From: Pseudoalteromonas sp. R3
GTDB lineage: Bacteria > Pseudomonadota > Gammaproteobacteria > Enterobacterales > Alteromonadaceae
Assembly (NCBI RefSeq): GCF_004014715.1
Contig: NZ_CP034835.1
Location: 3,658,001-3,722,000 of the forward strand
DNA: 64,000 bases
Direction: 5' to 3'
Under the pieces are notes generated by a model. The model searched no databases. It saw only the letters and a program-made list of their open reading frames with translations, and had not been told where the DNA came from. Positions 2 to 14,098 of this stretch are shown one piece after another. The position numbers and the translations under genes were made by a program. The number at the start of each line of letters is the position of its first letter. Position 1 is the first letter of the stretch.

Positions 2-3000
2 AGCCGCTATCAGCTTGAGCTGTCACCCAGCGTGTTGTTTATGCACTCGACCCTGAACAGCCTCAGAACCCATATTATCGCCGAGTATGGCGATATGCTG
101 ATCACTAGCAGCACAGTGACGCAAACAAGCTCAACGGATACAGCAGCAGAACAAGTCCCGGTGAATACCTCAAACGATGAAGCGATTGCCATTATTGGGA
201 TCAGCGCCGCCTTCCCCGAAGCGAGTAACCTCGACGAATTCTGGCACAACCTGAGCACAGGCAAAGACTGTGTAACCCGCCACAGCTGGCCACAACCGCA
301 AGACAGCGAGCTCAGCTGGCCCGGCGAAATTAACTGGCTGGGCCGCCTGCGACGCGACACCGAGTTCGACCCCTTATTCTTCAATATTGCCCCAGCAGAG
401 TGTGAGCGCATTCAGTTGCAGGAAAGCCTGCTAATGATGCATGTCTGGCAGTGTATTGAAAATGCCGGATACGATCCAAAATCGCTGGCAGGCACCAGCA
501 CCGGGTTATTTATTGGTTGTCAGTCTGGATATCACGAAGGGCTGATCACCTCCCCGGCATTTGCGCCAAACCGTATGAGCTACTTCCTCGACCTGCACGG
601 CCCGAGCGAAGGGATAGATACCACCTGCTCATCATCGCTAGTGGCCGTACATAAGGCCATGGCAGCCATTCGCATGGGTGAGTGTGAGCAGGCCATTGTT
701 GGCGGCGTCAATATCATAGACACCCCCACCGCCTCTATGGCCATGCAGGAGATAGGTGCGCTGTCGCCGGATGGACGATGCAAAACCTTTGCTGCCGATG
801 CCGATGGCATAGTACGGGGCGAAGGCGTTGGCATGATCATGCTGAAAAAGCGCTCGGCAGCCGAGCGCGATCAGGACGCCATTTACGCCACATTGCTGGG
901 CTCAGCGGTTAACCATGGCGGTAAATCACAAGGCTTTACCGTGCCCAATGCCCGGGCACAAACTCAGCTGCTGGATAAAGCCTGGCGCAACGCCAACATC
1001 GACCCGGCCACACTCAGCTACATCGAGTGTCATGGCACCGGCACCACACTCGGCGATCCGGTTGAACTGGATGCGCTCAAGGCAGCCTTTAATACACATC
1101 AGTGGCCAGCCCGCTGTGCGCTGGGTTCAGTGAAAAGCAACATAGGCCATACCGAGATTGCGGCGGGTATCGCCGGGCTTATCAAGGTTGTGCTGCAACT
1201 TAAGCATCAGACCCTGGTACCATCGCTCCATGTGCAGGCACTTAACCCCTATCTGGCACTCGAGGATACGCCGATCACGGTACAAACCCAAGCGCAGCCC
1301 TGGGAGCAGGGCGATACACCACGGCGGGCAGCCGTCAGTGCCTTTGGGATCAGTGGCGTGAATGCCCATGTGGTGCTCGAAGAGTATCAGCCGAACATCA
1401 CTGAGCAACACACAGCTTTGCCAGACTCGCCGGCGATGGTGGTGCTCTCGGCCACCAGCAAAGCGGCGCTGGGACAAAAAGTCACTGAGCTTGCCAATCA
1501 TGTTGCGACTTTGCCAGACACGCCGCAAATACTGGCACAACTGGCCGCGACCCTAGCACAGGGCCGCACCGCGCAGGCGTACAGACTCGGCTGGGTGGTG
1601 TCCTCACTGGACGAGCTGCGCACAGCCCTGAGCGAGGCCGTGCCTGATCAGGCTTCCAAGGTCAGCAATAACACCAGCGAGCAGCTAACAGCTGAGCAAT
1701 TGCTGACACTGCATCAAACTCAGGAATATGCCGCCATAATACGCTTGTGGCAATCCGGCAAAGTCGTGAGCTGGCAACCGCTTTACCCAACTTCTTTACC
1801 AAAACTGCACCTGCCTGGTACGTCTTTTATCAGCAAAAATGTGATTGAGGCTGAACAAACAAGTCCCTGGCTGCTGCTCGACAACCAATTTCACCCGGCT
1901 GCACTGACTCTGCCTAAGGACTGGCAGACGCTACTGACAACACAGCTGGCACACAGACATATTTTGCTGGTATCAGACACCCAGGCGCAGCTTGAAACAC
2001 TTAGTAAGCCGCTACATGCAAGTGGCTGTAAGGTGACTTCGCTGTGCTTTGAGCAACTGGATAACTCAGCGCTGGATCCAGAAGATCTGCCGGATACCAT
2101 CTTTGTGCTGGGCTGTGGTTCATTGCTTGAGCCGCAGCAGCAGATAAAACCCCTGTTCGAGCTGATGCAGCTAACCGCCCGTCACGACAATCACACGATG
2201 CAGCTGTTTTATGCCACTCAGACCGACTCGCAAATTGAAACCCGGGACGACCTGAGTGCCCTGCTACGTTGCTACAACCTGCGCAATCCGCAGCACAGCT
2301 GGATGTTAGTTGAGCAGCTCGGTGAGGCTGCTTGTCTGGGCGAATTGTTGCTACAGGAGTTTGCCAGTACCTTACTGAGCATAACCGAGCATCAGCCGAA
2401 TCAGGTGCAATACCGCGATGGTGCGCGCTATGCACTGCAACTAACACAACTGCCGGACGCAAGCGACACAGTTAAGCCTGAGTATGAAATACGTCACGGC
2501 GGTACTTATCTGATCGCAGGGGCACTGGGCGAACTGGGTATGGCACTGAGCCAGCGCTTGCTGGAAGACTTTGATGCGACCCTCATCTTACTAGGCAGGC
2601 GCGATGAGCAAGCCGTACAGCCACAACTGACTCAGTTCAGAGGAAAAGGCACAGTGCATTACCTGGCGTGTGATATTGCCGACGCCCAACATCTGGCATC
2701 ACTCAGCGACTTACTGAACGACAAATCACTAGAGCTCAACGGCGTGTTTCACCTCGGCACCACCTACACGGAAGAAGAAAACGACTGGGCCGACTTTGCC
2801 CGCTCAATGCAGGTCAAAGTGCAAGGCACGCAGCAGCTGGACTCCCTGCTCAGCAACTGTGAGCTGGACTTTTTTGTGCTGTTCTCTTCTATGGCCGTGT
2901 TTGGTAGCCTGAATCATCTGTCTTACTCATATGCCAATGGCTTTCAGAACGCCTTTGCCCGGACCCGAAATCAGCAAGTGGATAAGCAACAGCGTCATGG

Positions 3001-4741
3001 TCAGACTCTGGCAATTAACTGGGGCTACTGGCATTCAGATGATCCGCTAAAAAGCATTGAAAACAGCTTTGCCGAGAAAAAGGGCTATCAGCTGATCCAG
3101 ATGCACGATGCCTTTGCACAACTGCCCAAGCTGCTCAGCACCAAGCGCAGCACCCTGGCGGCCATTTGCACCACAGAGCCGGAGCGCATCATGCATAACA
3201 CAACGGCACTATTACAGCGTAAACGCCTCCTACAATCCCGCCTTGAACACGGTTCAGAGGCAGTAACTGAGGCGTCTCAGGATATCGCTGGCACTGTGGT
3301 GAGCATTGTTGGCCAGGTGCTGGGAATAGCTCCCGATGAGCTGGATCTAAATTGCGACCTGTATGATTATGGCTTTGACTCTATCTCATTGCTGAAAACC
3401 TTCCAGCAGCTCAAGGCCCGGCTCAATATTGATATTCAGGCCGATGCCTTTAAGAACATGAATACCATTCAGACACTGATCGACGAAATCGACAAGGCCC
3501 ATGGCCAGGTTCAGCATGAGGACGACGCTTCGTTACCTGAGTTTATTGTCGATGCGGGCATTGACTTGCCGACGCTGCCCGATGAGATAGTGCATGCCTA
3601 TGAGGGCGACGTCCGCAATGTGCTGCTCACCGGAGCAACCGGCTTTTTAGGCAGTCACCTGCTGGCAGAGCTGCTGGCCACCACCAAAGCAAAAATATAC
3701 TGCCTGGTACGCGCCGACAGTGTAGAGCAAGCCCTCACTCGCATTGCCGATAATGCCAAGCAGTATGCGCTGACTCTGGATCTGGAGCGCATCGTGCCTG
3801 TCCCGGGAGATATGGAGCAATCCCGGTTAGGCGTATCCGATGAGCACTGGGCACTGCTGTGCCGGGACATCCAGCATGTGGTCCATACGGCGTCTTATGT
3901 GAACCATATCCAGCCCTACTTTGCCTTTAAAAAGTCGGTGGCTGGTACCAATGCCCTGCTAACACTGTGCTGTACGGACACGCTGAAGATGATCCACTTT
4001 GTCTCCAGCACCACCGCCAGTACCCAGATAAAGGATTCCCACTTCTCAGTAAACCCGCGTGAGTCTTTTATTCCAACAGATGAAGCAGCCTTGCTGTGCA
4101 GCGGTTATGGTCAGTCGAAATGGGTGCAGGAAGAAAACATTCGTCAGGCATCACACATAGGTGTGCCCTACACGGTTTACCGTTTTTCAGAAATCTCGGG
4201 GTCATCTAAAACCGGCATTGGTAACACGGATGATGTCTTCCACCGTATCCTGAAAATGATGCTCAGCATTGAGGTGCGCCCGACTGAAAGTCCTTACATG
4301 CTGGATATTATTCCGGTTGACCGCGCAGCTACCTGTATTGTCGCGGGCATGAACGACCCACAAAAGCGCAACCAGGTCTATCACGTGGCCAACCCAGCGC
4401 CACTGAGCATTGCGGCCTTTTATGACTTTGCCACTGAGCGGGGTTTACGCTTTTCGCAAACAGATAAAGCCGAGTTTATTAGTGCCTGTGAAGCCTACGC
4501 GGCCCGGCGTGAGGGCAAAGATCAAGTCATTATGCAGGGTTTATTGTCATCACGCCCCGGCTATGACGAATACCTGTTTGAAGCCTATTTTATGCCGATG
4601 GACCCGTATGATAAGGACAACTTTATTGCGCTGACAGAGCGCTATGACATCACGCTGGGTGACTGGGAGCGTTTGTTTGATACTTACTTTACCCAGTGGC
4701 TGGAAGACAGACACTATCGGGAGATCTGGCAGGAGAGTTAA
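2..4741 (+). CDS. Trans-AT type modular polyketide synthase, terminal module with thioester reductase (5' end outside window)
   Basis: The reading frame is open from base 2, so the gene begins upstream; 1579 residues are visible. The first ~40 residues look like the end of an acyl carrier protein. A ketosynthase follows (about 58-475) with active-site Cys209 in DTTCSSS, His344 in ECHGTGT and His383 in NIGHTE. Next come the post-KS linker and an LPKLHLPGTSF segment like a trans-AT docking region, then a ketoreductase (about 825-1080; AGALGELG nucleotide motif, YSYAN holding the catalytic Tyr and Asn). A carrier protein has phosphopantetheine Ser1127 in GFDSIS. The C-terminal reductase has GATGFLG near 1210 and a Y1369-x3-K1373 pair. 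No acyltransferase domain is present, so malonyl units probably come from a separate enzyme. By family knowledge a terminal reductase releases the chain as an aldehyde or alcohol using NAD(P)H. A terminator and convergent serB follow, so this is the right-hand border of the cluster. The product is not identifiable. Confidence 0.93.
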   Translation, partial: SRYQLELSPSVLFMHSTLNSLRTHIIAEYGDMLITSSTVTQTSSTDTAAEQVPVNTSNDEAIAIIGISAAFPEASNLDEFWHNLSTGKDCVTRHSWPQPQDSELSWPGEINWLGRLRRDTEFDPLFFNIAPAECERIQLQESLLMMHVWQCIENAGYDPKSLAGTSTGLFIGCQSGYHEGLITSPAFAPNRMSYFLDLHGPSEGIDTTCSSSLVAVHKAMAAIRMGECEQAIVGGVNIIDTPTASMAMQEIGALSPDGRCKTFAADADGIVRGEGVGMIMLKKRSAAERDQDAIYATLLGSAVNHGGKSQGFTVPNARAQTQLLDKAWRNANIDPATLSYIECHGTGTTLGDPVELDALKAAFNTHQWPARCALGSVKSNIGHTEIAAGIAGLIKVVLQLKHQTLVPSLHVQALNPYLALEDTPITVQTQAQPWEQGDTPRRAAVSAFGISGVNAHVVLEEYQPNITEQHTALPDSPAMVVLSATSKAALGQKVTELANHVATLPDTPQILAQLAATLAQGRTAQAYRLGWVVSSLDELRTALSEAVPDQASKVSNNTSEQLTAEQLLTLHQTQEYAAIIRLWQSGKVVSWQPLYPTSLPKLHLPGTSFISKNVIEAEQTSPWLLLDNQFHPAALTLPKDWQTLLTTQLAHRHILLVSDTQAQLETLSKPLHASGCKVTSLCFEQLDNSALDPEDLPDTIFVLGCGSLLEPQQQIKPLFELMQLTARHDNHTMQLFYATQTDSQIETRDDLSALLRCYNLRNPQHSWMLVEQLGEAACLGELLLQEFASTLLSITEHQPNQVQYRDGARYALQLTQLPDASDTVKPEYEIRHGGTYLIAGALGELGMALSQRLLEDFDATLILLGRRDEQAVQPQLTQFRGKGTVHYLACDIADAQHLASLSDLLNDKSLELNGVFHLGTTYTEEENDWADFARSMQVKVQGTQQLDSLLSNCELDFFVLFSSMAVFGSLNHLSYSYANGFQNAFARTRNQQVDKQQRHGQTLAINWGYWHSDDPLKSIENSFAEKKGYQLIQMHDAFAQLPKLLSTKRSTLAAICTTEPERIMHNTTALLQRKRLLQSRLEHGSEAVTEASQDIAGTVVSIVGQVLGIAPDELDLNCDLYDYGFDSISLLKTFQQLKARLNIDIQADAFKNMNTIQTLIDEIDKAHGQVQHEDDASLPEFIVDAGIDLPTLPDEIVHAYEGDVRNVLLTGATGFLGSHLLAELLATTKAKIYCLVRADSVEQALTRIADNAKQYALTLDLERIVPVPGDMEQSRLGVSDEHWALLCRDIQHVVHTASYVNHIQPYFAFKKSVAGTNALLTLCCTDTLKMIHFVSSTTASTQIKDSHFSVNPRESFIPTDEAALLCSGYGQSKWVQEENIRQASHIGVPYTVYRFSEISGSSKTGIGNTDDVFHRILKMMLSIEVRPTESPYMLDIIPVDRAATCIVAGMNDPQKRNQVYHVANPAPLSIAAFYDFATERGLRFSQTDKAEFISACEAYAARREGKDQVIMQGLLSSRPGYDEYLFEAYFMPMDPYDKDNFIALTERYDITLGDWERLFDTYFTQWLEDRHYREIWQES

Positions 4742-5926: not shown

Positions 5927-6547
5927 ATGAAAAATACACAAGCCCTTGAATATCTCTCGTCGTCACGCAACCGCCGGTTACTGCGCCTACTGGTCGCCGC
6001 AATGTGCTTTTTAACCGTTACCTGGCTGGCCTTTAATACCAGCTTTCGCTCTCATCAGCTGTTACACACCAATGCCGATCACACAGGCCGTAGCCTGACG
6101 AAACAACTGGCGCTGAATGCTGCTTTACCGCTTAGTCGTATGGATACGCCCCAACTCAGGGCTTTGTGTAATCACCTCGCCAGCGACGAATTTGTACTGT
6201 CGGTCAGGCTCTACAATCAACAAGGCCAATTTGTTATCGGCAACGATGGCCAGGATGCACCACCTGAGATAACCGACTTGCCTCGTCATTTAGCCGGGTT
6301 GACTCAGTCTAAGCAGCCCATTATTGAACCCATTTATGATACAGAGCAACAACCCATAGGTTTCGTCAGCGTCGAGTATTTAACCGAATCCGCGATGGCC
6401 GAAAGTCACCGCCACTTCCACGAGCTGGGTCGCGTGGTGCTGCTGATGCTGGCTATTGCCTGTATTTTTACCTGGCAAATTGGCCGGGCCTTAAAGCGCT
6501 GGGAAGTGAAACGTCAGATCCGCAATAGCGTTGCTGATGAGCAATAG
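5927..6547 (+). CDS. Smp/YtjB-family membrane protein
   Basis: A 206-residue inner-membrane protein with one hydrophobic helix near residues 22-40 and a second near 170-185, enclosing a periplasmic-looking domain of about 125 residues. The topology and its place divergent from serB match the Smp (YtjB/AhpA) family of gammaproteobacteria, sometimes labelled a hemolysin homologue without good evidence. The C-terminal tail is short, basic and cytoplasmic. The molecular function is not established. Confidence 0.8.
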   Translation: MKNTQALEYLSSSRNRRLLRLLVAAMCFLTVTWLAFNTSFRSHQLLHTNADHTGRSLTKQLALNAALPLSRMDTPQLRALCNHLASDEFVLSVRLYNQQGQFVIGNDGQDAPPEITDLPRHLAGLTQSKQPIIEPIYDTEQQPIGFVSVEYLTESAMAESHRHFHELGRVVLLMLAIACIFTWQIGRALKRWEVKRQIRNSVADEQ

Positions 6548-6612: not shown

Positions 6613-6641
6613 TTGACATCAGGTTGGAATTAAAATAATTT
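6613..6641 (+). promoter_or_regulatory. Candidate promoter of the small peptide gene
   Basis: A perfect -35 hexamer TTGACA (6613-6618) is followed after 17 bases by a poor -10, TAATTT (6636-6641), in an AT-rich stretch about 90 bases before the 59-codon gene. The position is plausible, the -10 weak. Confidence 0.4.
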
Positions 6642-6732
6642 TTTACTGTGAGTTACCAGAATGGGTAACTAGCTTACCGCGCTGAGCAATTAAATTCGGC
6701 GTTGGCACAATTTCAAGTTTAAGGAAAATAAA

Positions 6733-6912
6733 ATGAAATTACAGATTAAAAAGAAAAAAATAAAAGTGCTATCTAGTCAAAGTAACCTCAACCGTTTGGC
6801 AACTCCCAATGTTGCAGGAGCTGGTTTCATTACGCATGTTGAGTTTTGCAATGGTAATAAAACGAATTTTAATTGTGCCTCTAATGGCTTTGAATACTGC
6901 ACAATTAAGTAG
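6733..6912 (+). CDS. Putative RiPP / natural-product precursor peptide (59 aa)
   Basis: A 59-codon gene starts seven bases after AAGGA, a good ribosome binding site. The first ~27 residues are Lys-rich (MKLQIKKKKIKVLSSQ) and run into TPNVAGAG, which resembles the leader and double-glycine-like cleavage boundary of small bacterial natural-product precursors (the KxLS-type leaders often annotated as class I lanthipeptide-like). The C-terminal ~29 residues would be the core: they hold three cysteines (C39, C48, C56) with Ser, Thr and many Asn and Gly, and end in CTIK. No lanthionine synthetase, radical SAM enzyme, peptidase or ABC exporter lies within the window, so modification and export would have to be supplied elsewhere. 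The ribosome binding site and composition make it look like a real gene; the family assignment is inference. Confidence 0.65.
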   Translation: MKLQIKKKKIKVLSSQSNLNRLATPNVAGAGFITHVEFCNGNKTNFNCASNGFEYCTIK

Positions 6913-6922
6913 GTGCTGACTT

Positions 6923-6943
6923 TGAGAGGTTATATACCTCTCA
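6923..6943. terminator. Hairpin after the small peptide gene
   Basis: An 8-bp perfect stem TGAGAGGT/ACCTCTCA with a TATAT loop begins 10 bases after the peptide stop. There is no strong T-run, so it may be a weak terminator or an mRNA 3' stabiliser. Confidence 0.4.
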
Positions 6944-6975: not shown

Positions 6976-7737
6976 CTATCCAAACATCTCTCCTGACGCA
7001 CAATAAAGTGCTTCTGCAATAGCCTGCGGTGACTCGTCGCGAATAGCGCACAAATGCTCAAATACCTCCACCAACCGTTTAGGTAGATTTGGCTGACCCT
7101 GATACCCTGCCAACGGCATAGAAGGCGCATCGGTTTCCAACACGAGAGAGTCCAACGGCACTTGAGCCAGTGTAGTGCGGGTTTTCGCCGCCCGCGGATA
7201 GCTAATGGTGCCCCCCACGCCAAGTTTAAAGCCCAGTTTGAGATACGTGTTGGCATCTTGCAGTGAGCCGGAAAAGGCATGAATAACGCCACCGTTTTGA
7301 GGTGGCAGCTGTTTAAACGCCGCTGCCAGCAGGTGATGGCTTTTTCTGTGGTGCACTATCAGCGGCAGGCCGAGTGCATTGGCCAGCGTAATGTGTTCGA
7401 TAAACAGTGCCTGCTGCGCGGGGATATCCTCTACCATGGCATCTATGCCACACTCACCTATGGCCACCAGCTCTAAGCTATGCTGGTGTGCAAGTGCGGC
7501 CAGTTGCGCCATATCACCCGCTTTATGCTGCGCCATAAAGTACGGATGCAGGCCAAAGGCGATTTTGACGCCTGAATACTGCCGCGCAAAAGCGGGCAAG
7601 GTGCGGCATTGAGCCAGCGTCACCCCCGGCACCACAAACTGCTCGACCCCCAGTGCCCGTGCCTCACTCAGATGCTCCGCAAGGTGTGATGCAAGCTCAG
7701 TAAAGTCGAGGTGACAATGGGTATCGACAAAACGCAT
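6976..7737 (-). CDS. TatD-family metal-dependent hydrolase
   Basis: A 253-residue TIM-barrel hydrolase of the TatD/YcfH family, which includes 3'-5' exonucleases and D-aminoacyl-tRNA deacylase activity. The N-terminal metal motif is DTHCHLD, a Glu lies in AIGECGID, IVHHRK carries metal-binding His, HAFSG follows, and LETDAP near the C-terminus holds the last Asp. It lies 10 bases downstream of pdxH on the same strand and is probably co-transcribed. The exact in vivo substrate is unknown. Confidence 0.88.
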   Translation of the reverse strand: MRFVDTHCHLDFTELASHLAEHLSEARALGVEQFVVPGVTLAQCRTLPAFARQYSGVKIAFGLHPYFMAQHKAGDMAQLAALAHQHSLELVAIGECGIDAMVEDIPAQQALFIEHITLANALGLPLIVHHRKSHHLLAAAFKQLPPQNGGVIHAFSGSLQDANTYLKLGFKLGVGGTISYPRAAKTRTTLAQVPLDSLVLETDAPSMPLAGYQGQPNLPKRLVEVFEHLCAIRDESPQAIAEALYCASGEMFG

Positions 7738-10412: not shown

Positions 10413-12002
10413 TTAGTGTTCGCGTGTCTGATGGAATTGTACGTCCGGATAACGCTCCATCGACAGGTTCAGGTTAACGCGACTTGGCGCAACGTAAGTC
10501 AGGTTATCACCTCCGTCGAGTGCCAGGTTTTGCTCGCATTTACGGCGGAACTCTGCCAGCTTTTTCTCATCGTCACAATTAACCCAGCGCGCTGTCTGAA
10601 CGTTGACGCTTTCATAAATCGCATCCACGTTGTACTCAGACTTCAGACGTGCCACAACCACATCAAACTGCAGCACACCAACCGCGCCAACGATCAGATC
10701 GTTGTTGATCAACGGGCGGAATACCTGAACCGCGCCTTCTTCTGATAACTGTACCAGGCCTTTCAATAGCTGTTTTTGTTTCAACGGATCTTTAAGACGG
10801 ATACGACGGAACAGCTCAGGGGCAAAATTCGGGATACCGCTGAACTTGAGCTTTTCACCCTGAGTGAAGGTATCACCAATCTGGATGGTGCCGTGGTTGT
10901 GCAGACCAATGATATCACCAGCAAAGGCCTCCTGTGCGCGCTCACGATCGCCCGCCATAAAGGTCACGGCATCTGAAATACTCACCTGCTTGCCAAGACG
11001 TACATGGTTCATTTTCATGCCCTGAGTATATTTACCCGACACGATACGCATAAAGGCGATACGGTCGCGGTGTTTCGGGTCCATGTTGGCCTGAATTTTA
11101 AATACGAAACCGGTGAACTTCTCGTCATCTGCGCTCACTTCACGCTCGTCTGTCTGACGTGGCAGCGGCGACGGTGCCCACTCTGTCAGGCCATCCAGCA
11201 TATGGTCCACACCAAAGTTACCCAATGCAGTACCGAAATACACAGGTGTGAGTTCGCCGCTCAGGAATAGCTCTTTGTCGAATTCATGAGAGGCACCCAT
11301 GACCAGTTCCAGCTCTTCACGTAACTGCTCTGCCAGGCTTTCGCCGATGGCGGCATCTAAGTCTGCGTTGTCGAGCCCCTTAATGGTGCGGACGTCCTGA
11401 ATGGTGTGACCCTGACCGGTTTGATACAAAATAGTCTCGTCACGATGAATGTGATAAACGCCTTTAAATTCTTTACCACAACCAATTGGCCAGGTAACCG
11501 GTGCACACATGATGTTCAGCTCGGTCTCAACTTCGTCCAGCAGCTCCATCGGATCGCGGATATCACGGTCCAGTTTGTTCATGAAGGTCACGATAGGCGT
11601 ATCACGCAGGCGGGTGACTTCCATTAGCTTACGAGTTCGATCCTCAACACCTTTCGCGGCATCAATTACCATCAGGCACGAGTCCACAGCAGTCAGGGTA
11701 CGATAGGTATCTTCCGAGAAGTCTTCGTGTCCCGGCGTATCCAGCAGGTTTACCAGGCTGTCGTTGTACGGGAACTGCATGACTGAGGTCGTCACCGAGA
11801 TACCACGTTCTTTTTCCATGTCCATCCAGTCTGACTTTGCATGCTGGTTGGAGCCACGACCTTTAACCGTGCCGGCTTGTTGCAGGGCCTTACCGAACAA
11901 CAATACTTTTTCTGTGATGGTGGTCTTACCCGCATCCGGGTGTGAGATGATAGCGAAAGTACGTCGCTTATTTATTTCATTGAGGAAAGTCTGATCTGCC
12001 AT
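10413..12002 (-). CDS. prfC: Peptide chain release factor 3
   Basis: GTPase that removes RF1 and RF2 from the ribosome after termination. It has 529 residues, as in E. coli. G1 is SHPDAGKTT near the N-terminus, [12 protein letters not shown] is G3, and NKLDRD is G4. EF-G-like domains II and III follow. The start gives the conserved [21 protein letters not shown] beginning. A 9-bp inverted repeat sits about 42 bases upstream of its start. Confidence 0.97.
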
Positions 12003-12043
12003 TAGTCAATTCTTTTGGTTATACGCGGATCCATACATGCTGC

Positions 12044-12068
12044 GCAAAGTGTGCGCACGACACTTTGC
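12044..12068. promoter_or_regulatory. Inverted repeat in the prfC leader
   Basis: GCAAAGTGT and ACACTTTGC form a perfect 9-bp inverted repeat with a 7-base GC-rich spacer, 42 bases upstream of prfC on its sense strand. It could be a leader hairpin or a dyad operator; nothing else supports either. Confidence 0.3.
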
Positions 12069-12294
12069 AGGGTCATCCGGCGGGTTCATTTTTAATCGTG
12101 CACTATTTTCGCCGATCTTGGCACTTTTAACAATCAATGAAGGCAAGTTCAATCAGGATTTCGTGCAACACTAGGTCAATTCTGTCTTACGCATCTGAAA
12201 GTCTGAGTATTATGTGAATATTTTTTGAATAAAATGACGCGGCTGAATATCGTCTGGTAGGATAGTTCCCAATTCCAGAAAAAGACATAACGAT

Positions 12295-13035
12295 ATGAAC
12301 AACAAGCTTTTTGTAATACCTAAACCAAACCCCAATGCAAAACTCAGACTCTTCTGTTTTCCCTATGCCGGGGGCTCTCCTGCGATATACATGCCCTGGA
12401 GTAATGCACTGCACCCCGATGTAGAGCTGGTATTGCTACAATTCCCCGGCCGGGGCGCTCGCATGGGAGAAGCGGCCCATGTTGACATGCAGCGCAAAGT
12501 CAACGAACTGCTCGCACATCAGGCGTTTCTGACCGAAAAACCTTATGTTCTCATGGGCCACAGCTTGGGTAGTCGGGTTATTTTTGAAACCACTAAACAC
12601 TTGGCTGAACGAAACGCGCCTCTGCCACGCCACCTCATTGCTTCAGGCAGCCGCGCACCCCACACTTCCTCAGATAAAGAGCGTATCCACAACCTGCCTC
12701 ACGACGCCTTTGTCGCTGAATTATACAAGCTCAATGGCACGCCCAAGGAGCTGCTGGAGCACAAAGAACTGATGGAGTTACTACTGCCCTTACTCAGAGC
12801 CGACTTTCAGATTGCCGAGTGTTATCAGGGAGAAGCAATCGCTCTGCCCTGTCCAATCACCGTATTCCATGGATACGATGACAGTGATATCAGCGATGAA
12901 CAACTGCATGGTTGGCAAGACCTCAGTGACCATACAATTGATATTCACTACTTCCATGGCGATCACTTTTTCATTAATCAATGTCGTGATGAGGTGATCC
13001 GTGCGGTGAATCAGGTGCTCAGTAAAATACTGTAG
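12295..13035 (+). CDS. Type II thioesterase (alpha/beta hydrolase)
   Basis: A 246-residue stand-alone thioesterase of the family that hydrolyses wrongly loaded acyl groups from PKS and NRPS carrier proteins. It shows the family N-terminal pattern CFPYAGGSPAIY and LLQFPGRGARMGE, the nucleophile Ser90 in GHSLGS, an Asp near 195 (GYDDSD) and His224 in HGDHFF. It lies alone between housekeeping genes prfC and a zntB homologue, about 7.5 kb from the polyketide synthase at the left edge and not in an operon with it. It may serve that megasynthase or another cluster elsewhere. The ribosome binding site is weak. Confidence 0.9.
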   Translation: MNNKLFVIPKPNPNAKLRLFCFPYAGGSPAIYMPWSNALHPDVELVLLQFPGRGARMGEAAHVDMQRKVNELLAHQAFLTEKPYVLMGHSLGSRVIFETTKHLAERNAPLPRHLIASGSRAPHTSSDKERIHNLPHDAFVAELYKLNGTPKELLEHKELMELLLPLLRADFQIAECYQGEAIALPCPITVFHGYDDSDISDEQLHGWQDLSDHTIDIHYFHGDHFFINQCRDEVIRAVNQVLSKIL

Positions 13036-13101
13036 TGGTGCTTGCCAAAACACCTCTGCTAACCAATGATAAACATACTTGTTTACCCGTAGGGATTGAA
13101 T

Positions 13102-14061
13102 ATGGAAGGCTTACTTCATGCGCTTAGCCTCAATGGTCAGGGTGGCACTGTGCCTGTCACTGATCTGGCACAGGCACTCCAAGACGAACAACCAATATGG
13201 TTGCATTTCGACTATACCTGTGAGGCTGTACAACACTTTCTCAGCCAGCTAGATTGCTTACAGGAGTGGGAGTGGCAGGCACTACTTGCCGAAGAAACCC
13301 GCCCTCGCGTGACCCGGGCCAGTCAGGGCTTGTTGCTTTTTTTACGGGGCGTTAATCTAAACCCGAGGCAAAACCCCGAAGACATGGTTTCAGTCCGCTG
13401 TTTTGTCAGTAAAAACCTGTTGATCACCTGTCGTAAACGTGTGTTGATCTCTATCGAAGATTTACGTGATGCCCTACTGGATGGGGCTGGTGCACACACT
13501 ATTAGCGACCTGACTTGTGCTTTGATCGATCGTCTGACACACCGAATGCAAGACACACTATGGCAGGTCGAAGAACAGCTGGACGAATTTGAAGAACAGC
13601 TCGATAAAGAAGAGTCTCAGCCTGACTACCATCAAATTACCCTGTTGCGGCGCCAGGTGATCTCGTTAAAGCGCTATATTAAACCGCAGCGCCAGGCAAT
13701 CTATGACCTGATCGATACCAAGGTAAGCTGGCTCAGTCTTGAGCAAAGGCGGTTATTGGGTGAAGCCAATAATACCCTGAGCCGCTATATTGAAGAACTC
13801 GAAGCCAGTATAGAGCGCGCACAGGTACTCCAGCAAAGCATCGCCAATCAGCTCAATGAACAACTTAACCAGCGCATGTATATCATGTCTGTTGTAGCGG
13901 CTTTGTTTTTGCCTTTAGGCTTTTTAACGGGTCTGTTGGGTGTCAATATCGGTGGTATTCCAGGCACCGAGAACCCTTGGTCATTTACTATCTTTGTGAT
14001 TTCATTGGTGGTATTGACCATCGCAGTTGCGATACTTTTTAAGCGGAGAAAATGGATTTAG
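13102..14061 (+). CDS. ZntB/CorA-family metal ion transporter
   Basis: A 319-residue CorA-superfamily channel. The long N-terminal cytoplasmic domain contains an acidic coiled coil (about 150-190). Two C-terminal membrane helices (about 256-280 and 290-312) flank a GVN signature (LLGVNIGGIPG) in place of the GMN of classical CorA; the GIPG continuation is typical of ZntB, which moves Zn2+. The ion cannot be set from sequence. The ATG at 13102 is chosen over an upstream TTG because AGGG lies seven bases before it. Confidence 0.85.
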   Translation: MEGLLHALSLNGQGGTVPVTDLAQALQDEQPIWLHFDYTCEAVQHFLSQLDCLQEWEWQALLAEETRPRVTRASQGLLLFLRGVNLNPRQNPEDMVSVRCFVSKNLLITCRKRVLISIEDLRDALLDGAGAHTISDLTCALIDRLTHRMQDTLWQVEEQLDEFEEQLDKEESQPDYHQITLLRRQVISLKRYIKPQRQAIYDLIDTKVSWLSLEQRRLLGEANNTLSRYIEELEASIERAQVLQQSIANQLNEQLNQRMYIMSVVAALFLPLGFLTGLLGVNIGGIPGTENPWSFTIFVISLVVLTIAVAILFKRRKWI

Positions 14062-14098
14062 GCGCTTGATATAAGACTAGCAAGTTTGCAGTGAAAAA

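Follow-up and report, generated by a model that had tools for sequence, protein, structure and literature searches.

The closest described plan is that of the prochlorosins and synechococsins, for which the accessible part of the source gives 29 precursors with ProcM and 79 with SyncM, in a dispersed class II arrangement (PMC10783134). One promiscuous enzyme, a conserved leader ending in GG, variable cores and scattered genes are the properties, as given in that part of the source, which the family described below appears to share. The prochlorosin system differs from it in the class II LanM, the Nif11-type leader and the phylum, whereas class I LanB and LanC and a short Lys-rich leader are found here. 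Enzyme promiscuity is best known from class II, according to the accessible text of another source (PMC12328550).

Class I products are described closer to the organism studied. Pseudorosins A-C of Pseudoalteromonas flavipulchra S16 (PsfB) are given as class I lanthipeptides in the accessible text (PMC12819058). PciA of Pseudoalteromonas citrea DSM 8771 is a class I lanthipeptide made by heterologous expression (PMC9993889, in part), and thalassomonasins A and B of Thalassomonas actiniarum are lanthipeptides made in the same way (PMC11015633, in part). PciA and the thalassomonasins are marine gammaproteobacterial lanthipeptides, like the products proposed here; they are presented as gene clusters in the accessible text, which contains nothing on dispersed precursors. 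Genome mining of P. viridis gave a LanB/LanC/C39 region, and no word beginning with 'precursor' occurs in the accessible main text (PMC11015633). C39 transporters accept leaders ending in GG, GA or GS, as stated in the accessible part of PMC10885120.

Mining is commonly restricted to the surroundings of the enzyme gene. In one survey, as far as its accessible text goes, inspection extended over seven genes to each side of LanC, and distant prochlorosin genes were missed for this reason (PMC7268733). No dispersed class I precursor family is reported in the literature searched, the scope of which stopped short of most subscription papers, including the original pseudorosin report.

The gene considered here, from Pseudoalteromonas sp. 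R3, is one of about 60 similar peptide genes dispersed over the genome, which are probably matured by one set of distant ring-forming and export enzymes. The gene itself is read, with a probability of about 0.85, as coding for a lanthipeptide precursor of class I whose maturation takes place in trans. The dispersed system, more than the single gene, is the finding.

The peptide gene between smp and tatD

The window (the whole stretch of 64,000 nucleotides that was analysed) contains a 59-codon open reading frame with an ATG start, a TAG stop and AAGGA at 6721-6725, separated from the ATG by seven bases. A short gene with a good ribosome site between smp and tatD had been noticed in the preliminary description, and both the frame and the neighbours, the latter identified by Pfam, agree with it. 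The features of the locus, in window positions, are as follows.

5927..6547, + strand: smp homolog, upstream neighbour, outside the system (Pfam SMP_2, PF10144)
6613..6641, + strand: candidate promoter TTGACA-17-TAATTT, the -10 box matching at 3/6 positions, under the threshold of the promoter scan
6652..6669, + strand: operator-like inverted repeat GTTACC-AGAATG-GGTAAC, read upstream of the gene
6719..6725, + strand: ribosome binding site TTAAGGA, read in the sequence
6733..6912, + strand: precursor peptide gene, 59 amino acids plus stop (sequence and the genome's own paralogs)
6733..6822, + strand: leader, residues 1-30, MKLQIKKKKIKVLSSQSNLNRLATPNVAGA (paralog alignment, nine aligned and 63 read)
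6823..6909, + strand: putative core, residues 31-59, GFITHVEFCNGNKTNFNCASNGFEYCTIK (cut placed from the aligned paralogs and the GA motif)
6923..6943, + strand: stem-loop without a T run (folding energy -13.1 kcal/mol, z -3.94)
6976..7737, - strand: tatD homolog, convergent downstream neighbour, outside the system (Pfam TatD_DNase, PF01026)

Elsewhere in the window, positions 32-4741 encode a polyketide-synthase-like protein with KS, KR, carrier and terminal NAD-binding reductase-like domains.

The leader ends with GA at residues 29-30, one of the three double-glycine-type ends (GG, GA, GS). At positions -4, -7 and -12, for which hydrophobic residues are the criterion, it carries V, Thr and L; V, T and L are also the commonest residues at these positions in the family, with Thr at -7 in 51 of 63 leaders. 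The 29 core residues include 3 Cys, 3 Thr, 1 Ser and 5 Asn. The reading as a RiPP-like precursor with a Lys-rich leader, a boundary at the GA of NVAGA and a 29-residue Cys-containing core is supported; the core indeed has the three Cys and the abundance of Asn that had been described, and the mention of many Thr and Ser was generous. Thr34, Thr44 and Ser50 lie on the N-sides of Cys39, Cys48 and Cys56, respectively, so that possible rings would be Thr34-Cys39, Thr44-Cys48 and Ser50-Cys56. The calculated [M+H]+ of the putative core (G31-K59) is 3258.44 without modification and would be 3204.41 after three dehydrations. NCBIfam and Pfam searches with this frame alone gave no match.

By eye, a sequence similar to the candidate promoter is present in the four junction orthologs described below, as is the inverted repeat, with the same left half and GGTAAT as the right half; a stem-loop of similar placement is seen 3' of the gene in the junction orthologs, again by eye only. 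None of the other 62 paralogs has this exact repeat pattern within 220 bases of upstream sequence. The promoter and terminator scan gave no terminator and one other weak promoter site on the + strand, and listed neither the candidate promoter at 6613 nor the stem-loop at 6923.

The junction was surveyed in 30 genomes, picked mainly among LanB carriers (28/30). All 30 have tatD, and in 25 smp lies beside it; in four genomes no smp was found within 1.5 kb of tatD, and in G018 a partial smp lies 1.2 kb away. A precursor gene is located between smp and tatD in 5 of the 25 (the own genome G000, G053, G094, G054 and G051), in a gap of 428-493 bp. At the 20 precursor-free junctions the smp and tatD frames overlap convergently by 34 bp (12 cases) or lie 31-84 bp apart (8 cases); the overlap was read through by eye in G106 only (example: L097 1491-1525).

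The leader has 20-22 of 30 residues in common with those of the junction orthologs (pN 0.14-0.18, pS 0.61-0.67), and the core 6-10 of 29 (pN 0.47-0.55). In an alignment made with the dN/dS pairs described below, 8-9 core residues are in common, and this copy is among the fastest-changing of the family. The relatives have four Cys, the last three of which correspond in the alignment to those of the window core; the remaining one falls in a 4-residue gap. Conservation at the junction, the lack of which was to count against the preliminary description, is therefore found for the leader and for three Cys, and is lacking for the rest of the core and for most of the junctions surveyed. The gene is most simply explained as a fast-changing insertion of one subclade at smp-tatD; a loss is possible in G106, a genome equally close by its tatD sequence in which the precursor is absent.

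Such divergence could also mean that this copy is decaying and has drifted since it landed between smp and tatD, an explanation compatible with the proposed maturation of the family as a whole. Its presence at a minority of junctions, the few common core residues, the 4-residue gap and the high core pN would all be expected of such a copy. However, the frame, the ribosome binding site, the inverted repeat and the stem-loop are kept, the leader pN is far below its pS, and each of the three Cys retains its own N-side Ser or Thr. Decay is thus considered unlikely.

The precursor family and its cores

The genome consists of two contigs of 1.33 and 4.50 Mb and has a completeness of 100; a search of it with the peptide as query gave 7 further places at E<=9.3e-4 (eight with the query itself). 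The search for homologous leaders, proposed earlier, was extended with a nine-row profile, which gives 64 places at E<=1 and 56 at E<=0.001, the nine input rows included. The peptide is therefore no orphan, as it had been called. Both contigs carry members, with 19 places on one and 45 on the other. If places separated by over 5 kb are counted as different sites, there are 47 sites, of which 36 hold a single gene.

Reading frames were read at 63 of the 64 places (C2:4438811, on contig C2, was left out by the requirement for 3-kb flanks); places with a stop inside the profile match (e.g. C2:3564062, 1663361, 175140 and 3746728) were read to the first stop only, and C2:3262165 (E 0.85, no ATG start) is a doubtful member. 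Starts were set by a script, which also separated leader from core at whichever GG or GA came first within residues 21-41. Nearly all leaders are Lys-rich, of the type MKLxLxKKxLKxLS, with GG or GA at the end. The median lengths are 30 residues for the leader and 29 for the core. AGGA, GGAG or AAGG precedes the start in 58/63 members, and none of the 63 frames overlaps by more than half with a frame of at least 150 amino acids. Word counts over the 220-base upstream regions of these 63 frames gave ribosome-binding and AT-rich words only and no common motif.

Named leader families fit poorly: NCBIfam searches with nine members gave one weak match each to NF038158 (E 0.016) and NF038153 (E 0.18), both class I leader families, and to TIGR04149 (E 0.22), with none for the window frame; two precursors adjoining LanB in other species gave no NCBIfam match.

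The cores contain 11.35% Cys and 18.4% Ser+Thr, compared with 1.26% and 11.08% in a control of 40 mechanical frames of at least 200 amino acids from the window. Cys together with Ser/Thr is present in 57 of the 63 cores, and Cys is absent from 6. A distinct N-side Ser/Thr partner can be assigned to 201 of the 204 core Cys. Full shuffles of the cores allow 156.7 +/- 6.0 paired Cys; part of the excess over them arises because Cys tend towards the C-terminal half of the cores (mean relative position 0.61), an effect removed by shuffles with the Cys fixed, which allow 185.8 +/- 3.4. Neither kind of shuffle reaches 201 in 1000 trials (0/1000 each). In the same N-side test the z values of eleven other residue sets lay between -2.3 and 1.6; Ser alone gave z 3.82, and Thr alone (z 1.04) no excess. 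Pairing to the C-side is possible for 142 core Cys. The N-side Ser/Thr signature is of the kind that lanthionine rings would want.

Selection was estimated from the 30 best-scoring of the places found in G094 and G054, 29 of which gave a frame and 27 of which were paired by their flanks with places of the own genome. The pooled dN/dS of these 27 ortholog pairs is 0.233 for the leader and 0.232 for the core, with the pairs L212 and L219, which look mispaired, retained and with G094 and G054 being close relatives. The expectation that cores evolve faster than leaders was rejected on these equal values; the cores are conserved in the sampled orthologs, and the window locus is the exception. Since a pooled ratio of 0.23 reflects purifying selection, the products of the sampled orthologs are probably in use.

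LanB, LanC and exporter genes and their distribution

A profile search gave one LanB match in the whole genome, about 0.75 Mb from the window gene. It belongs to a gene run which, in contig coordinates and in the order of transcription, comprises:

C2:4415501-4423474, - strand: HlyD, C39 peptidase-ABC exporter (714 aa), LanC, LanB (domain searches)

LanB (1048 aa) matches PF04738 with 445 bits over positions 2-649 of 649 and PF14028 with 207 bits over the full length. Its structure matches in PDB are NisB (4wd9) and the lantibiotic dehydratase 5ehk, and NCBIfam places it under a thiopeptide-type domain. The closest named LanBs, 96% identical, are those of two P. rubra strains and of Pseudoalteromonas sp. 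XMcav2-N, which puts the genome near P. rubra. LanC matches PF05147 and, in PDB, NisC (2g02); it contains GWCYG from residue 272 and CHG at 323-325, which we take to be the zinc-binding Cys, Cys and His of the cyclase. The exporter starts with a C39 domain, in which Cys, His and Asp are present as picked by eye from what we take to be the C39 motif. No member of the precursor family lies within 15 kb of the run, the nearest of the 64 places being at 15.3 kb. The genetic linkage of precursor and LanB/LanC that is customary in class I, though no strict part of its definition, is thus lacking, and the association is one of co-occurrence across genomes.

All genome-wide LanB and LanC matches lie outside the window, as the first reading of the window had it for modification genes. 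Of the enzymes proposed for a genome search, LanB and LanC were found genome-wide and a C39 peptidase-ABC in the same gene run, and a LanM dehydratase domain is absent from the three PF05147 proteins of the genome (LanC, a 412-aa LanC-like protein and LanKC). The gene of the 412-aa protein forms a run with those of a class IV aminotransferase and of ATP-grasp proteins (L045:7535-12094(-) = G000:C2:1118534-1123093). The class III LanKC (RamC_N, kinase and LanC-like domains), followed by an ABC transporter, is located at L044:677-5000(+) = G000:C2:4426676-4430999.

Precursor and LanB matches coincide in the genus: of 108 genomes, the same 51 have both and the other 57 have neither, the LanB-free genomes giving no precursor match at E<=0.001. 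The scan of the genus scored at most 56 candidates per genome and that of the bacterial family the best 15, so that high counts are lower bounds. In 395 genomes of the bacterial family, precursors are present in 35 and LanB in 43, and all 35 precursor genomes carry LanB. These 35, from 11 of 52 genera (13 genomes in the genus and 22 outside), are exactly the genomes with a LanB match at E<1e-100, a cut chosen post hoc after inspection of the list; in the 8 of 43 LanB genomes without a precursor match among the best 15 candidates, the LanB E-value is 5e-51 to 3e-18. The two samples overlap, 13 of the 35 being also genus genomes, and the counts are not independent because the genomes are related. 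As a control, LanKC occurs in 10 of the 108 genus genomes, all within the 51. Precursor matches per LanB genome of the genus number from 1 to at least 56, with at least 20 in 29 of 51; in four g14 genomes outside the genus there are 13 to at least 15, spread over contigs among the matches listed.

Two branches had been left in the preliminary description, the action of distant enzymes and a new type of unmodified exported peptide. The membership in a family of about 60 and the co-occurrence of LanB with the precursors in 51/51 genus and 35/35 family genomes make the former the most likely. The latter would take the form of an unmodified or disulfide-only double-glycine peptide, similar to small class II microcins, which is exported by C39-ABC/HlyD and untouched by LanB. 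A GG/GA leader with a C39 peptidase-ABC and HlyD would suffice for such a peptide, the Cys-rich cores could form disulfides, and the cores without Cys would fit. Yet every surveyed genome with the family contains LanB, the exporter is encoded in one gene run with LanC and LanB, and disulfides do not demand a Ser or Thr on the N-side of each Cys. An unmodified product is therefore quite improbable, and maturation by LanB in trans is preferred.

Clustered precursors are found elsewhere in the genus. Four genus genomes have no more than two precursor matches each (G001, G016, G061 and G070), and in every one of them a match lies less than 2 kb from LanB. At 37 named LanB loci a precursor was found in the flanks of up to 5 kb in 12 cases (the contig of L185 and one flank of L164 being short), and none at the 12 loci of P. 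rubra (3) and P. luteoviolacea (9). Since genomes with few precursors keep a LanB-adjacent copy and the P. rubra and P. luteoviolacea flanks are empty, the one-precursor cluster looks ancestral and the dispersed library derived.

The pseudorosin producer species illustrates the clustered state: the LanB of P. flavipulchra NCIMB 2033, of the same genus and class, is 63% identical to that described here, and about 1.4 kb from it lies a precursor that matches the leader profile (L178). This contrasts with the roughly 60 dispersed precursors here and with the LanB flanks of P. rubra and P. luteoviolacea. Cys-less small frames with a GG leader and the same profile are present near LanB in P. flavipulchra (L178:10584-10733(+)) and P. 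peptidolytica (L186:8761-8940(+)).

Within the R3 genome there is a tandem array of four Cys-less members (core ...RPTGWP...). A second C39-ABC/HlyD pair is located at about 2 kb from this array, and a RimK-type ATP-grasp gene at about 13 kb.

L086 (G000:C2:4441001-4461000) 2408-3328 and 10618-14072, and C2:4456977-4457647, - strand: region of the Cys-less members, the second exporter and the ATP-grasp gene (sequence)

The ATP-grasp protein (C2:4443-4444k) resembles graspetide maturases and is below every NCBIfam cut-off. As four of the 6 cores without Cys are near the second exporter and the ATP-grasp gene, some members need not go to LanB, and the leader family may be common to a second, ATP-grasp chemistry in the same genome. 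That the window peptide itself, through the shared leader, is a substrate of this graspetide-like enzyme is very improbable: the tandem members near it would speak for such a use, but the window core has three Cys with N-side Ser/Thr and lacks RPTGWP, and the enzyme falls under the cut-offs mentioned. Modification of the window peptide by LanKC is hardly credible. Its gene and that of the ABC transporter are close to LanB (some 8 kb from the LanB gene itself, with 3.2 kb separating them from the operon), but LanKC is found in 10 genus genomes and the precursors in 51, a distribution by which it is also ruled out as the general enzyme.

Proposed maturation and its meaning

Maturation of the window peptide by the class I enzymes could proceed as follows. 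The single genomic LanB would recognise the approximately 30-residue Lys-rich leader (MKLxLKKKxLKxLS...TPxVAGG) and dehydrate Ser and Thr of the core. LanC would then add the core Cys to the dehydro residues on their N-sides, with the formation of up to three lanthionine or methyllanthionine rings. The C39 domain of the exporter would cut after the GA of NVAGA, and the product of about 29 residues would be secreted by the ABC/HlyD pair. We infer that LanB acts on this peptide, and likewise the arrangement of the rings, the site of cleavage and the secretion. About 60 paralogous precursors with differing cores, encoded on both contigs, would enter the same machine, and the dispersed genes would thus constitute a genome-wide library.

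The family is best read as a class I counterpart of the prochlorosins, apparently alike in its working and not a member of that group. A more far-reaching version is somewhat favoured: one class I LanB/LanC pair would natively mature some fifty to sixty unlinked precursors, a set of prochlorosin size and, judging by the literature searches, the first in class I. Its origin would be a cluster with one precursor, from which it would have expanded, in no connection with the prochlorosins of cyanobacteria, as short precursor cassettes were planted at sites such as the convergent smp-tatD junction. The bolder extension, in which the leader family also addresses the ATP-grasp chemistry of the same genome, is less supported.

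The system also bears on how precursors are looked for. Because mining usually stays close to the enzyme, the LanB locus of P. rubra and P. luteoviolacea seems free of substrates, while many candidates lie elsewhere. The system occurs in 51 of 108 genus genomes, and 29 of these give 20 or more precursor matches, so that a single genus would suffice to trace how such a library grows. The biological role of the products would most likely be competition or signalling. If one LanB/LanC pair accepts all of the cores, it would represent a promiscuous class I machine.
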